Positions 826 to 6,250 of a stretch of DNA of 64,000 bases are shown one piece after another. Below the pieces are notes generated by a model. It did no database searches. It was not told where the DNA came from and was given only the letters and a program-made list of their open reading frames with translations. Source of the DNA: Desulfuromonas sp. AOP6 (lineage in GTDB: Bacteria > Desulfobacterota > Desulfuromonadia > Desulfuromonadales > SZUA-540). The DNA is taken from assembly GCF_009731355.2 (NCBI RefSeq), contig NZ_AP022810.1, positions 1,640,001 to 1,704,000 of the forward strand, given 5' to 3'. Each line of letters opens with the position of its first letter. Position 1 is the first letter of the stretch. Made by a program: the position numbers and the translations under genes.

Positions 826-1030
826 GCGTAATTTCTCCAGACGCTTAACAAAGTATTTCCCCTTCTACTTCTTTCTAACGACAATAAATCAATGGCAGAC
901 TGTAGTTTTTTCGCCCTTCCCGCAGTTAGTTTATGAATCTATTGAAATATTTCATACTTTTTGCATGACAGAGGCTTGGCCAATGTTAAAGTTTCCGTGA
1001 GTTTTTTTGTTTCTTTCAAGGGGGAATGCC

Positions 1031-2005
1031 TTGATCAGAATTATCTTTTTGCTGATAGCCCTTGGTTTTTTGTACGCCTGTAGCGATCTACCTGCTCTGC
1101 GGGCCGACCATCCCATTTTGCCCGTTCGCGAATATGAGCAGCTGATCGTCGGACGTCTTGACGCGGATTATGTTGGCGATGCCAACTGTCTCGCCCAATG
1201 CCATAAGCATGACGAGATCCGCCGTGATTTTCAAATGTCTGTTCATGGGGAGCAGATTTCTGCCGAAACCGGTCTGCCTCTGGTCAACTGCGAGTCCTGC
1301 CACGGACCAGGCAGCCTGGCCATCTTGAACGCCAAACAAAATGAAAAATGCGATTTCAAAACACTTCTGCAGTTGGAGGAGCTTCCTTCTCAAGCCCAGT
1401 CTCTTATCTGCCTCAAATGTCATTCGGCGGCGTCAACCCCCAACCTCCATTTCTGGAATGGGAGCAGCCATGCCAGCAGTGATGTCAGTTGTTTTGACTG
1501 CCACAAGCTGCATCAGGGGCCACAGCAGAAGGTGCGTCGGCAGGAGATGGATGAGATGTGTTATTCCTGTCACATCAATACACGTATGGAGTTTGCCCAG
1601 TTTTCACGTCATCCCGTGCGCGAACAAAAAATGGCCTGTATTGACTGCCACGAGCCTCACGGTTCCTCACAAAAGCATGATCTCAAGGGACTCACCGTCA
1701 AAGAAATGTGCACTCGTTGCCATATGGACAAGCAGGGCCCTTTTGTCTATGAACATGCCGACCTGTCCGATAATTGTCTTACCTGCCACTCCCACCATGG
1801 TTCGGCCAACAACAGCCTGCTGAGAACGTCTGAACCCTTTCTCTGCCTTCAATGTCATGCCGGCCATCAGGACTATTCGCATCCTGCTTTGGCCAGTGAC
1901 ACGTTGAAAGGGGCCTTTTACTCACGCTGCACCAGCTGCCACTCGTCCATTCACGGAACGGATATTCCATCGTCCAAAGGCAGGGGTACGTTCATTGCCC
2001 GCTGA
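1031..2005 (+). CDS. Decaheme c-type cytochrome lipoprotein, DmsE/MtrA type
   Basis: There are ten CXXCH heme-binding motifs (CLAQCH, CESCH, CLKCH, CFDCH, CYSCH, CIDCH, CTRCH, CLTCH, CLQCH, CTSCH) spread over about 310 residues, the number found in the MtrA/DmsE family of periplasmic electron carriers. The start is set at a TTG codon preceded six bases upstream by AAGGGGG. This gives a short hydrophobic leader ending in a lipobox (LYAC, Cys17), so the protein should be a lipoprotein. An upstream TTG at 1007 would add eight residues but has no ribosome site. The next gene, 31 bp on, is an MtrB-like barrel, so the two should form an outer-membrane porin-cytochrome conduit that carries electrons to extracellular acceptors such as metal oxides. 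No third, cell-surface cytochrome gene (MtrC/OmcB type) is next to them. Confidence 0.92.
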   Translation: MIRIIFLLIALGFLYACSDLPALRADHPILPVREYEQLIVGRLDADYVGDANCLAQCHKHDEIRRDFQMSVHGEQISAETGLPLVNCESCHGPGSLAILNAKQNEKCDFKTLLQLEELPSQAQSLICLKCHSAASTPNLHFWNGSSHASSDVSCFDCHKLHQGPQQKVRRQEMDEMCYSCHINTRMEFAQFSRHPVREQKMACIDCHEPHGSSQKHDLKGLTVKEMCTRCHMDKQGPFVYEHADLSDNCLTCHSHHGSANNSLLRTSEPFLCLQCHAGHQDYSHPALASDTLKGAFYSRCTSCHSSIHGTDIPSSKGRGTFIAR

Positions 2006-2036: not shown

Positions 2037-4115
2037 GTGAATAAAACGAGAATCCATTTTCTATTGCAGATTGTTGCTCTTGTGGCCGCGGGGACGCTTT
2101 CTCCGGTCTTTTCTGAAATGGATTGCCAGGACCCGGATCCACGGATTCTGGAGAGTGCGTTTTCCTTGGGGTATCGCGTGGTGGACTCACAGAAAAACAC
2201 ACAACGAGCAGGAGAATACAGTTTCCTCGAATCAGGCACGGTCGCCGGAATCGTCTTGAAGGACCTCAAAGCGACCCAACGGTTCCGTTTTGAAGCAGAC
2301 TACTTTGACCAAACGGACTACAACGCCGAAGTGGATTTTGATTATCGGGGTCTGTTCCGTCTCCACGCGACCAGCGCGACCTTCAATCATCAGCTTGAGC
2401 ACTTTCCTGGTATTGATGATGCGCTCCTTCCTCTGCAGGTAGAACCCCTGGTCAAATTCACCGACCATAACCCCGGAGAAGTGTACGCGATAGAGGTCAA
2501 AAGGGATGAAGTGAGTTTGCGGGCCAGGCTCCCTGAATTCCCGGCTCACTTCAATCTCGCCTACTGGCGGTTGCAGCGTCAGGGAACCCGGCAGGGATGT
2601 TTTGTGGATGAAGGCAGTGCGCAAAGCGCGGATTGCAATTCCTGCCACCTGCAGTCAAAAACTGAAAGGGTAAACCAGATCACCGAAGAAATCAGAGGAG
2701 GTCTGGATGCACATCTGGGGCGGGTCGACGTCAGCTATTCCGGTTTTTATCGTGAGTTGCGCAATAAAAGCCGTGCTCTTTCGGACCCCTTCGGGGAGCT
2801 TATCGACACTCACACAGATCCGGACACTCTCTATCGTCATGCGGGCGAATACGAGCACGATGCGGTCCCTGAGTCGCGCCACATCGCCCATTCCCTCAGC
2901 CTTCATACCTCTCTTTCTGGCGGCCTGACGGCTGGTGGTATGGTCAGCGTGGGCGAAATGGAAAGTGGGTCCAAGGTAAGTGATGTGGATTTCGTTAAGT
3001 CCAAAAGTGACTATTGGAAGGCGGCGGGAGACTTTACACTGACCCCTTCCAGCAAGTGGACCCTCACACTGCGTTATCGAATGCTCGATATGGACACGCA
3101 GAATTCGGACTTCATCACGGTAAGTGGGCTGCCAGACGCTTCCATCCCCGTTCGAGACAGCATGGATGTCAAGCGCGCCCACTACGGATCACGGCTTTCC
3201 TATCGACCCAATTACCGATTGACGATTCAGGGCGATTTGGAACGGGAAGAAGTTGAACGCACCACGACCGGGCCAATGCTTGACGAATACAACGATCCTT
3301 TTTGGCATCTGCCTGAAAAAGAGAATAAATCCTCCTATAAAGTCAGCCTCATCGCCCGTCCACTGGGTACACCAAAATTCAGACTCAATCTTTCTTATAA
3401 ATTTCTCACTTCGGATGACCCTTCTTACGGCACGTCCTTGAAAAATGGTCACCATGGCTTCGCTGGCACCACCTTGACCTTGACCGACCGAGCGGGCATG
3501 ACAGCCAACGTTCTTGTCATTCGGGAGGAGAACAATCGCATTGAACGAACCCTTTTTCACGATTCGACAACCCTCAACAGGTATCAGATATCTCGGCAGC
3601 TTGCCTCAGAAAATGCGACCGCCGGTTTCTGGGTTGTCCCCAGAAAGGGTTTACAGGTCAATATCCGTTATGGATATCTGCATAGTCGTACGGAACAGGG
3701 ACTGCTTTTCGGAAATGATCATTATTCCGACTATGTCATTCTGGATGAAAATGCCGAGTTCGAGCAGACCGTCCACACCGCGGAGCTATCCTCTGCCTGG
3801 CATATAAACGAACAGGTTTCCCTACAGGGCGAAGCCCGCCTGACCCGTTCCGCCAGTCGTTTTGATCCCAGTTTTGCCTATCAGCCTCTCGATTATTATG
3901 GTATCGGCACCACGGGGGTCGACTCGTCCACCCTCCGGCAACTGAGCGAATTGCATATTTTTCAGACGGCGTACAAGGTGGGTGTTGACTGGAAATTCAA
4001 GGATGAGTGGAAATGTTCCGCCCGTTACACCTTTGATCGCTATGAAGACCTGGAAGGTGCGGTTCTTGATGGCATAGTCCAGAGTTATCTGCTTTCTCTG
4101 TCGAGGGCCTGGTAG
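2037..4115 (+). CDS. MtrB/PioB-family outer-membrane beta-barrel with an internal heme motif
   Basis: 692 residues starting at GTG, with AGGAGG nine bases upstream. A signal peptide of about 26 residues (cleavage near VFS) is followed by many alternating-polarity strands such as KWTLTLRYRML and GLQVNIRYGYLHS, and the chain ends in the aromatic residue Trp, as barrel proteins usually do. Length and context match MtrB/PioB proteins, the porins that sheath a decaheme cytochrome in the outer membrane. Unusually, there is a complete CNSCH heme motif at residues 200-204, preceded by another Cys near residue 189. MtrB proteins often carry a CXXC pair near the N terminus, but a heme motif about 200 residues in is not expected. 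The gene forms an operon with the cytochrome upstream. Confidence 0.85.
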   Translation: MNKTRIHFLLQIVALVAAGTLSPVFSEMDCQDPDPRILESAFSLGYRVVDSQKNTQRAGEYSFLESGTVAGIVLKDLKATQRFRFEADYFDQTDYNAEVDFDYRGLFRLHATSATFNHQLEHFPGIDDALLPLQVEPLVKFTDHNPGEVYAIEVKRDEVSLRARLPEFPAHFNLAYWRLQRQGTRQGCFVDEGSAQSADCNSCHLQSKTERVNQITEEIRGGLDAHLGRVDVSYSGFYRELRNKSRALSDPFGELIDTHTDPDTLYRHAGEYEHDAVPESRHIAHSLSLHTSLSGGLTAGGMVSVGEMESGSKVSDVDFVKSKSDYWKAAGDFTLTPSSKWTLTLRYRMLDMDTQNSDFITVSGLPDASIPVRDSMDVKRAHYGSRLSYRPNYRLTIQGDLEREEVERTTTGPMLDEYNDPFWHLPEKENKSSYKVSLIARPLGTPKFRLNLSYKFLTSDDPSYGTSLKNGHHGFAGTTLTLTDRAGMTANVLVIREENNRIERTLFHDSTTLNRYQISRQLASENATAGFWVVPRKGLQVNIRYGYLHSRTEQGLLFGNDHYSDYVILDENAEFEQTVHTAELSSAWHINEQVSLQGEARLTRSASRFDPSFAYQPLDYYGIGTTGVDSSTLRQLSELHIFQTAYKVGVDWKFKDEWKCSARYTFDRYEDLEGAVLDGIVQSYLLSLSRAW

Positions 4116-4129
4116 GCGCTTTCCTTTAG

Positions 4130-5128
4130 ATGATGTGTAATGGTGTCCCTTTGATCCGTTTTTTTCGACATCCTCGTATTTTGATTCCTTTGGTGGCAGC
4201 CTGCCTGCTGATCCTCATACCCGTTGTCGGTTGGTGTAAAAAAGACGCCCTGGTGGCCGTGGTGATTACCGGCGACCTTCCCAGATACCAGCTTGCCCAC
4301 GAGGCTTTTATCCACAAGTTGGAAGAACTGACGCAGGATAGAGGCAAGGTGACAGTCTATGTACAGCGGCCCAATCCGGATGTCATGTCCTGGATAAACA
4401 GTATCCGCAAAGCCGTCGGCATCGGGGCCGACGTTATTGTTACTTATGGTGCGCCTGCGACACTGGCCGGTAAAAGTGAGGGAAGAAATATACCGATTGT
4501 TTTTGCAGAGGTATATGATCCCGTCGCTCTGGGGATTATTGCCGATATTGGCAGGCCGGGAGGGAATCTTACGGGAATGGCAGGACAAACGCCCCTTGAG
4601 ACCCTGTTGCACGCCTATTATTTATCCAAGGATGTGCGTAAAATCGGCGTTCTTTTTTCCCCTGAAGATCAGGCGTCGATCTACCAGAAAAATAAACTGG
4701 TGGAGATTGCCGAGAAAAAGGGGATTACGGTATTGCCGGCGGAAGTCAATGGACCTGGTGATCTCTGGAAAGAGCTTCAGACCCTGTCTCCCCACATCGA
4801 TTCTCTTTTTGTAGCGGAAAGCGCTGTTTTGGAAATGTCCGCCGCAAAAATCATGGACTTTTCCCAAAAGAACGGAATACCAGTTATTTCCCAGATCCAC
4901 GGCTTTTGTGATATGGGCGCCCTGATGACCCTTGAGGCCGATCCTTTTGAGCAGGGTAACGGGATCGCCGGCTATGTTTCTGAAATACTGTCAGGTAAAA
5001 AACCGGGCGAACTACCTGTCCGCACTCCACGTAAGGTCGCCCTGGTTATTAATCTGAACGTAGCCCGAGAACTTGGCCTTAAAATTCCTTTTCAGGCTTT
5101 AACCCTCGCCACACGTGTCATTCGTTGA
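4130..5128 (+). CDS. ABC-transporter-type substrate-binding protein (COG2984/PF04392 family)
   Basis: 332 residues. A hydrophobic leader covers about residues 15-35 (ILIPLVAACLLILIPVVGW). Two Rossmann-like halves of the type I periplasmic binding fold follow, with family sequences such as ADVIVTYGAPATLAGK, PIVFAEVYDP and GGNLTGM. Relatives bind small ligands, in some cases aromatic amino acids, for ABC importers. No permease or ATPase gene is adjacent, so it could instead feed a sensor protein or a transporter encoded elsewhere. It begins 14 bases after the barrel gene and may be co-transcribed with the conduit, but no strong ribosome site precedes the ATGATG start. The ligand cannot be read from the sequence. 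Confidence 0.82.
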   Translation: MMCNGVPLIRFFRHPRILIPLVAACLLILIPVVGWCKKDALVAVVITGDLPRYQLAHEAFIHKLEELTQDRGKVTVYVQRPNPDVMSWINSIRKAVGIGADVIVTYGAPATLAGKSEGRNIPIVFAEVYDPVALGIIADIGRPGGNLTGMAGQTPLETLLHAYYLSKDVRKIGVLFSPEDQASIYQKNKLVEIAEKKGITVLPAEVNGPGDLWKELQTLSPHIDSLFVAESAVLEMSAAKIMDFSQKNGIPVISQIHGFCDMGALMTLEADPFEQGNGIAGYVSEILSGKKPGELPVRTPRKVALVINLNVARELGLKIPFQALTLATRVIR

Positions 5129-5150: not shown

Positions 5151-6047
5151 CTATCCCTGCAACAAATAAAGAATAGTAGTCAGAGTCGCGGCGCTTAGCA
5201 GGGTCGTGACCAAGATGGTGCCTGCGACCAAGTCGGGCCGCATGCCGAAGCGGAGAGAGTACAGCAAAGGCAGAATGGCTGAGGGCGTGCTGGTCTGAAG
5301 AATGATGACATTTCTGGTTGTCCCGGACATGTCGAGCAGGGTCGCGATTGCCCAAGCAACCAGAGGTGCTATTCCCAGGCGGATAAGGGTGGCCAGAGAC
5401 AAAAAACTCCACTGGGCTTCCAATTTGGTTCTGGCCAGCTGCATCCCCAAAAGCAGGAGCATCAGAGGGATGGCCGCATCACCCAGAAGTTCGATGGCGC
5501 GCAGCAGGAAAAAGGGGACGGAAAGGTCCACTGCCTTAAAAAGAAAGGCCAGGGCCACCGCATGAAAGATGGGAATTTTGAAAGTGTTGACCAGGGCTTT
5601 TCCGAGAGGAACTTTTCCACCCTGGGCGACCACAATGGCCAGAGTGGACAAAGGGATATTGAACAGGACGAAAGTCAGTACGGAAACATTGAGTCCCTGT
5701 TCTCCAAAAGCAAAATAAGCAAGAGGAAGCCCAAAATTACCTACGTTCATGACGACAGTCGTCAAAACGAGAGCGCCGCTCTTTTCCTGAGGCATCGAGG
5801 TTGCCGCCGCGACAAACCGCACTAACAGATAGAGGGCCAGGGTATAGAGAACCATGAAGAAAAAAATATCGAGAGTCAACGTCAGTTGCAGATTCTGGCG
5901 AATGAGCGAAGAGAAGACGAGGGCTGGTGAAAAAATATAAAGAGAACAGTCGGTCAGCGTTCTAAAATCGAGACCGATCTTTTTCTCGGCCATGTAGCCG
6001 CAGAAAATCAAAATAAAGACAGGAAGAATGATGTTGACGAAGAGCAT
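5151..6047 (-). CDS. AEC-family (auxin efflux carrier type) membrane transporter
   Basis: About 298 residues, with roughly ten hydrophobic segments in two halves and the N-terminal pattern LFVNIILPVFILIFCGYMAEKK of AEC permeases. These inner-membrane carriers move organic acids such as malate or other weak acids. The start at 6047 is preferred over the upstream ATG at 6104 because AAGGGGA lies six bases before it and the extra 19 residues are polar and unlike the family. The gene is convergent with the ABC binding protein. The substrate is not predictable. Confidence 0.88.
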   Translation of the reverse strand: MLFVNIILPVFILIFCGYMAEKKIGLDFRTLTDCSLYIFSPALVFSSLIRQNLQLTLTLDIFFFMVLYTLALYLLVRFVAAATSMPQEKSGALVLTTVVMNVGNFGLPLAYFAFGEQGLNVSVLTFVLFNIPLSTLAIVVAQGGKVPLGKALVNTFKIPIFHAVALAFLFKAVDLSVPFFLLRAIELLGDAAIPLMLLLLGMQLARTKLEAQWSFLSLATLIRLGIAPLVAWAIATLLDMSGTTRNVIILQTSTPSAILPLLYSLRFGMRPDLVAGTILVTTLLSAATLTTILYLLQG

Positions 6048-6250
6048 AGGTTCCCCTTGACGGATTATTCCGTAAAAGCTAGCACGGTGACACCCATTCT
6101 TCAATGGCTGATAGGTGTTCGCGCCCTTGGATTGAAAAATGGGTGTCAGGAAATATCATTGACAAACGTATGATTAAGTTGCTTAAATAACAGGCTGTTC
6201 TTACTGGCGCCGGATCCGGCGAACATTCTTCACCCTTTGCGGAGGACATC

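Follow-up and report, generated by a model that had tools for sequence, protein, structure and literature searches.

A conserved putative heme site in an MtrB-like outer-membrane porin family paired with decaheme cytochromes

In the established picture of the MtrCAB conduit of Shewanella, the outer-membrane barrel serves only to insulate and every heme is carried by another protein, with heme A10 of MtrA lying within 8 Å of heme C5 of MtrC at the cell surface (PMC7198977). A precedent for a heme-bearing barrel is Cyc2, a single-heme porin of 16 strands whose cytochrome domain is predicted to form a plug on the periplasmic side (PMC8406198). In addition, GM18_3465 of Geobacter sp. M18 has been predicted to be a porin-like outer-membrane cytochrome with 10 hemes, whose motifs would lie in long, solvent-exposed loops of a predicted barrel (PMC4245776).

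The nearest relatives of the porin examined here form a sister family that is already named for its CXXCH in NCBIfam (NF041027, 'GSU2204 family CXXCH-containing (seleno)protein'). GSU2204 itself is listed as a 'cytochrome c family protein, putative' that is upregulated together with OmcK on hematite and magnetite (PMC4070692), and work on the partners of methane-oxidising archaea names a porin, OmcL, beside OmcK as upregulated on the same minerals (PMC10553843). The pair GSU2204 and GSU2203 (OmcK) thus appears to be the OmcKL conduit of the latter study, with OmcL corresponding to GSU2204; that study finds it unusual that no gene for a periplasmic cytochrome adjoins OmcKL, and treats OmcK as extracellular (PMC10553843). 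A 2026 review places the GSU2204-type family among the selenoprotein families, as a barrel of the MtrB/PioB family (PMC13188914). In the literature that we searched, largely titles and the openings of abstracts, we found no statement on the role of a barrel heme beyond such annotation names.

The window, the whole 64,000-nt stretch of Desulfuromonas sp. AOP6 DNA in which all coordinates below are given, contains an ORF of 692 amino acids (2037-4115, plus strand, GTG start), directly downstream of an ORF for a DmsE/MtrA-type decaheme c-type cytochrome (1007-2005, plus strand; TIGR03508, 260.5 bits against a cut-off of 192.2) that we presume to be the wire in the barrel. The downstream protein matches Pfam PF11854 (MtrB_PioB) above its cut-off of 23 (38.8 bits, 6.1e-10), and an earlier sequence-only reading of this DNA was thus right to see an MtrB/PioB-like barrel paired with a cytochrome. 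Because its score against TIGR03509 (25.6 bits) falls below the cut-off of 240, we file the porin as MtrB-like and not as a member of TIGR03509; its score against NF041027 (156 bits, and 150 in a second run) is likewise under the cut-off of 350. The complete CNSCH motif noted in that reading is indeed present at residues 200-204 (2634-2648, plus strand), at the outer end of predicted strand 8, where it is the single CXXCH of the chain and shares an alignment column with the CXXCH of NF041027. Searches with the window protein alone against genome contigs returned 14 pattern matches and no relative, and those with the L012 porin against viral contigs 17 pattern matches and no relative; against PDB sequences, phmmer with the window protein found none, and a profile of alignment A2 gave three matches only (E 0.076 to 0.85).

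The fold was predicted with AlphaFold for the window porin (pLDDT 73, pTM 0.65, 14 sequences) and for the porin of locus L099 (pLDDT 70, pTM 0.61, 15 sequences), and each model, at moderate confidence and as counted from its strand list, has 26 strands of six or more residues, as in the MtrB fold. The best match in the PDB is MtrB of Shewanella baltica (6r2q_B; Foldseek E 2.7e-19, TM 0.67), for which VIA gave a Z of 23.2 over 559 aligned positions (rmsd 3.3, 11% identity), the next row reaching 14.6. With MtrB, PioB, MtoB or DmsF and MtrA, as in Shewanella MtrCAB (6R2Q), the window locus shares a predicted 26-strand barrel and a decaheme partner of the DmsE family. Like Cyc2 and Cyt572 of iron oxidisers, the porin combines one c-type heme motif with a porin in a single chain, and the conserved attachment motif expected of a c-type cytochrome is present in it; the arrangement of Cyc2, with CXXCH in an N-terminal cytochrome domain ahead of a 16-strand porin, is not the one found here, where the barrel has 26 predicted strands, the motif is predicted to lie in one of its outer loops and a decaheme gene adjoins. 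From GM18_3465, compared with it by description, the window porin differs in having one motif instead of ten distributed over several loops, as predicted for that protein.

With the GSU2204 family, the window porin has in common the barrel, the motif column and the upstream decaheme gene. However, 32 of 35 GSU2204-type ORFs end in TGA followed by 140-165 in-frame codons, whereas the window porin ends in TAG, with the next in-frame stop five codons on, and shows no selenocysteine-type continuation past a TGA; unlike the GSU2204 type, it also has a partner whose first motif is CX3CH and a PF04392 gene downstream. The same genome carries a second pair, consisting of an NF041027 member over the cut-off (619 bits) with a CDSCH motif and a decaheme neighbour. 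This second porin, of GSU2204 type (G000:C1 207278-209167, minus strand; loci L081, L004 and L002), ends in TGA and continues for 159 in-frame codons starting ANDVSSGQFGSIC. SelB is found over the cut-off in this genome (394.9 bits), and a tRNA search of L081 returned none. The second porin is probably both a selenoprotein and a heme protein, its selenocysteine lying past the end of the NCBIfam profile; the possibility that selenocysteine replaces a motif cysteine was rejected, as the TGA lies beyond the profile end in 32 rows and CX2CH is intact.

Relatives were collected in the order, where 84 of 136 genomes had an NF041027 match at E 0.001 and 50 were over the cut-off, and in a sample of 345 genomes of the phylum, 44 of which had a match at E 1e-10; to these we added 15 named loci, nine titled Desulfuromonadales or Desulfuromonas and six Deltaproteobacteria. 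Keeping ORFs of at least 440 amino acids and one sequence per identical core left 104 distinct porins; a smaller early alignment had held 23 of 30 ORFs, with L018 and L021-L026 left out. At the motif column, 78 of the 104 porins have CX2CH, 16 have CX3CH, one has CX5CH and nine have none, a count in which the truncated L095, whose motif region is absent, stands as 'none'. Both cysteines and the histidine are therefore present together in the 94 rows with X2 or X3 spacing, and the tree requires no fewer than nine switches of spacing between X2 and X3, with CH intact throughout. The sequence-only reading had suggested that a CXXC is common here in MtrB proteins, which is not borne out, and that homologues with CXXC and no histidine would speak against a heme: none of the 127 rows of the larger alignment has the cysteine pair without the histidine, and the 24 canonical rows lack any cysteine in the aligned segment. 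Because a disulfide needs neither a histidine nor an adjacent CH, this pattern fits a heme better, and motifs of the CX3-4CH type have been confirmed to bind heme covalently (PMC4245776). We judge it very likely, from conservation across the family, that the putative heme site is real.

As controls, we used TIGR03509 matches at E 1e-20 among 341 genomes of the phylum, which gave 30 matching genomes, 13 of them over the cut-off. Two of the 30 loci yielded the wrong ORF (L206 and L213), and among the 28 readable ones, 27 ORFs match the expected frame length, that of L205 being shorter (933 vs 973). Unlike the window porin, none of these 28 TIGR03509 (MtrB/PioB) porins, 13 over the cut-off and the rest below it, contains CX2-5CH. 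A FastTree phylogeny of 103 family porins (L095 omitted) and 24 control rows (L191, L196, L200 and L205 also left out), in which 79 of 124 inner branches are starred, separates 101 family rows, 94 of them with the motif, from 26 rows that lack it, namely the 24 controls and two MtrB-like family hits, L096 and L097. The distribution of the motif requires 5 changes on this tree, against a mean of 29.2 when shuffled, and none of 500 shuffles was as low. The motif is present in all 59 rows of the GSU2204-type clade (support 94) and in 35 of the 42 rows of the window's clade (support 100). The simplest account of these sequences would be that the motif was gained once, at the family's base, with losses in L143-L146, in L147, in L090 and, as CX5CH, in L109.

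In both models, each of a porin alone, the motif lies in the loop that joins strands 7 and 8, which in the window porin comprises residues 189-203 (2601-2645, plus strand), and its last residue is modelled as the first of strand 8; residues 189-206 have pLDDT below 50. Since the number of strands is even, both chain ends are on one side of the membrane, and in both models the turns after even strands are short and the loops after odd strands mostly long. In MtrB, the periplasmic turns are tight and the outer loops long (PMC7198977), and by this rule we take the side of the motif, indicated by strand count and loop length, to be extracellular. Of the sites that the sequence-only reading had offered for a covalent heme, lumen or periplasmic loop, the latter is thus unlikely, as both models put the motif on the long-loop side, and the former would apply in that the loop could bend inward and reach the lumen at its outer mouth; its suggestion of covalent attachment as such gains from the family-wide signature.

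Two histidines on the same side of the model barrel as the motif loop were considered as distal ligands. His122 (2400-2402, plus strand), in the outer loop after strand 5, occurs in 83 of 94 motif rows, in 3 of 9 family rows without the motif and in 1 of 24 canonical rows, an association with the motif that is significant when rows are counted singly (Fisher p 1.3e-4, 104 rows). However, it is missing from 11 of the 94 motif rows, and a test on 5 independent pairs, of which 1.5 went the same way, 2.0 the opposite way and 1.5 showed no difference, gave no support for linkage, so that we retain it only as a candidate, albeit the best one for the distal ligand of the putative heme. His118 (2388-2390, plus strand), at the end of strand 5, is shared by 93 of the 94 motif rows, all 9 family rows that lack the motif and 20 of 24 canonical rows, and is therefore probably older than the motif.

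The decaheme protein of the window has ten heme motifs, the first being CX3CH (CLAQCH, 1187-1204) and the other nine CX2CH. A multiheme ORF lies directly upstream of the porin at 103 of the 104 family loci, the exception ending at a contig edge, and it has ten motifs in 100 of the 103, the remaining three being cut at the locus edge. One CX3CH and nine CX2CH are found in the partners at 41 of 42 window-clade loci (the last is cut), and GSU2204-clade partners have ten CX2CH where complete. An account from 2014 describes Mtr cytochromes as having no known atypical motif (PMC4245776), and our literature search on CX3CH and maturation found no paper. The signal of the window's decaheme protein ends in ...LYACSDL, and that of several relatives in ...ACTDL, which we take to resemble a lipoprotein box.

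Further multiheme genes were surveyed as ORFs with three or more heme motifs within 5 kb of the porin. There were none at 20 window-clade loci, nor at the window locus itself (L235), which in this respect is unlike MtrCAB, and 3 at 20 GSU2204-clade loci, all on the opposite strand (p 0.15). Canonical loci had one in 6 of 16 cases (p 0.004 against the window's clade, kinship uncorrected) and none nearby in the other 10, after exclusion of 4 of 20 that gave no porin of the set; because flanks are shorter than 5 kb on one side at several canonical loci and at two loci of the window's clade, L242 and L247, the canonical counts are a lower bound. An MtrC-type protein (TIGR03507) over the cut-off was not found in the window's genome, which gave six weak stretches only, and occurs in 11 of the 136 genomes of the order. 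Since 7 of these 11 genomes also have the porin family, a replacement of MtrC by the porin is not general: the absence of MtrC is usual, not a rule.

We consider it more likely than not that the porin is a c-type cytochrome and a barrel in one, and that its putative heme on loop 7-8 extends the decaheme wire outward. The decaheme protein would sit in the barrel as MtrA does in MtrB and carry electrons through the outer membrane. A single heme bound at C200, C203 and H204 would stand at the outer mouth of the barrel and follow next after the terminal heme of the decaheme chain, exchanging electrons in either direction with an outside acceptor, a mineral, a nanowire cytochrome or a partner. The porin heme would thereby take the place of the first heme of the docked MtrC in Shewanella, and the outcome would be an eleven-heme conduit made of two proteins. 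The upstream decaheme gene, the contact between MtrA and MtrC, the scarcity of additional multiheme genes and the frequent absence of MtrC together favor a wire whose last heme is that of the porin, at the outer mouth, and on balance an exit heme at the surface is the likelier arrangement. More tentatively, and with a little less than even confidence, we propose that this eleven-heme conduit is widespread in Desulfuromonadales and other Desulfobacterota, that its barrel holds the terminal surface heme such that no MtrC-like cytochrome is needed, and that it arose when an MtrB-like porin gained CXXCH and His122. If the barrel has a conserved heme of its own, the construction of the wire's exit would have to be seen differently, and the barrel may conduct as well as insulate. 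Conduits of the OmcKL type could then be explained by a partner of the DmsE/MtrA family within the lumen and a porin heme as the outermost one. New here are the second clade, the clustered gain of the motif, the switching between X2 and X3, the predicted placement in an outer loop and the model of a two-protein conduit.

The alternative that survives best, unlikely as we consider it, is that the putative heme lies inside the lumen beside the decaheme wire and acts as a structural clamp, a redox buffer or a lock instead of an exit. In MtrB the pore is narrowed to about 15 Å by outer loops that fold across it (PMC7198977), so a heme on loop 7-8 could point inward. The motif is, moreover, absent from L143-L147 and L090, which retain the decaheme gene and the downstream gene: the conduit can evidently manage without the site, which fits a dispensable aid. 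However, the lumen of MtrB in the known complex is already filled by the decaheme partner (PMC7198977), and the lack of any further multiheme gene at 20 window-clade loci leaves room for the porin heme as the exit. The class-level relatives L143-L146, which keep the decaheme protein, the porin and the PF04392-like gene and have lost both cysteines, His204 and His122, are natural controls for the role of the heme.

A redox-active CXXC is present near the N-terminus of MtrB. By analogy, the CXXCH of the window porin might be heme-free, serving as an unmodified dithiol or disulfide, as the sequence-only reading had also considered, or as a metal site. The joint conservation of both cysteines and the histidine, the changes of spacing with CH intact and the lack of any CXXC without histidine argue against a plain disulfide as they do against chance, and covalent heme attachment by CX3-4CH motifs is stated to have been confirmed (PMC4245776). 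We accordingly rejected a disulfide as the main reading, and a heme-free site of any of these kinds now seems improbable.

The window's clade has a conserved third gene, which encodes an ABC_sub_bind (PF04392) binding protein in the window (4130-5128, plus strand; Pfam 6.6e-39). A PF04392-like gene lies just downstream of the porin and on the same strand at 32 of 81 loci with at least 1200 b of downstream sequence, all of them among the 39 window-clade loci with such room and none among the 42 others. The next gene in the window (5151-6104, minus strand) encodes a PF03547 transporter, not an ABC permease. Three downstream proteins tested, at L083, L104 and L108, are all chemoreceptors (MCPsignal and HAMP). 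These neighbours would agree with a sensory or gating heme, by which the conduit, together with the PF04392 protein and a chemoreceptor, would inform chemotaxis of a ligand or of the redox state outside; such a link between sensing and an electron conduit would be unusual. However, porins of the other clade keep the heme site with no PF04392-like gene, and L143-L147 and L090 keep the gene with no heme motif; because each occurs without the other, the two are not tied, and a sensory role strikes us as highly improbable. Lastly, a chance CXXCH, which the sequence-only reading had raised and for which nothing but the length of the protein speaks, can for practical purposes be dismissed, given that only 182 of 200,000 shuffles of the residues of the window porin (5 cysteines, 24 histidines) contain any CXXCH and that 94 of 104 relatives have the motif in one and the same column.

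A single deviating site was seen among the relatives: in the porin of L109, which is the same as that of L059, CYSTIGCH (CX5CH) near residue 229 replaces CX2/3CH, and may represent a decaying or very unusual heme site.
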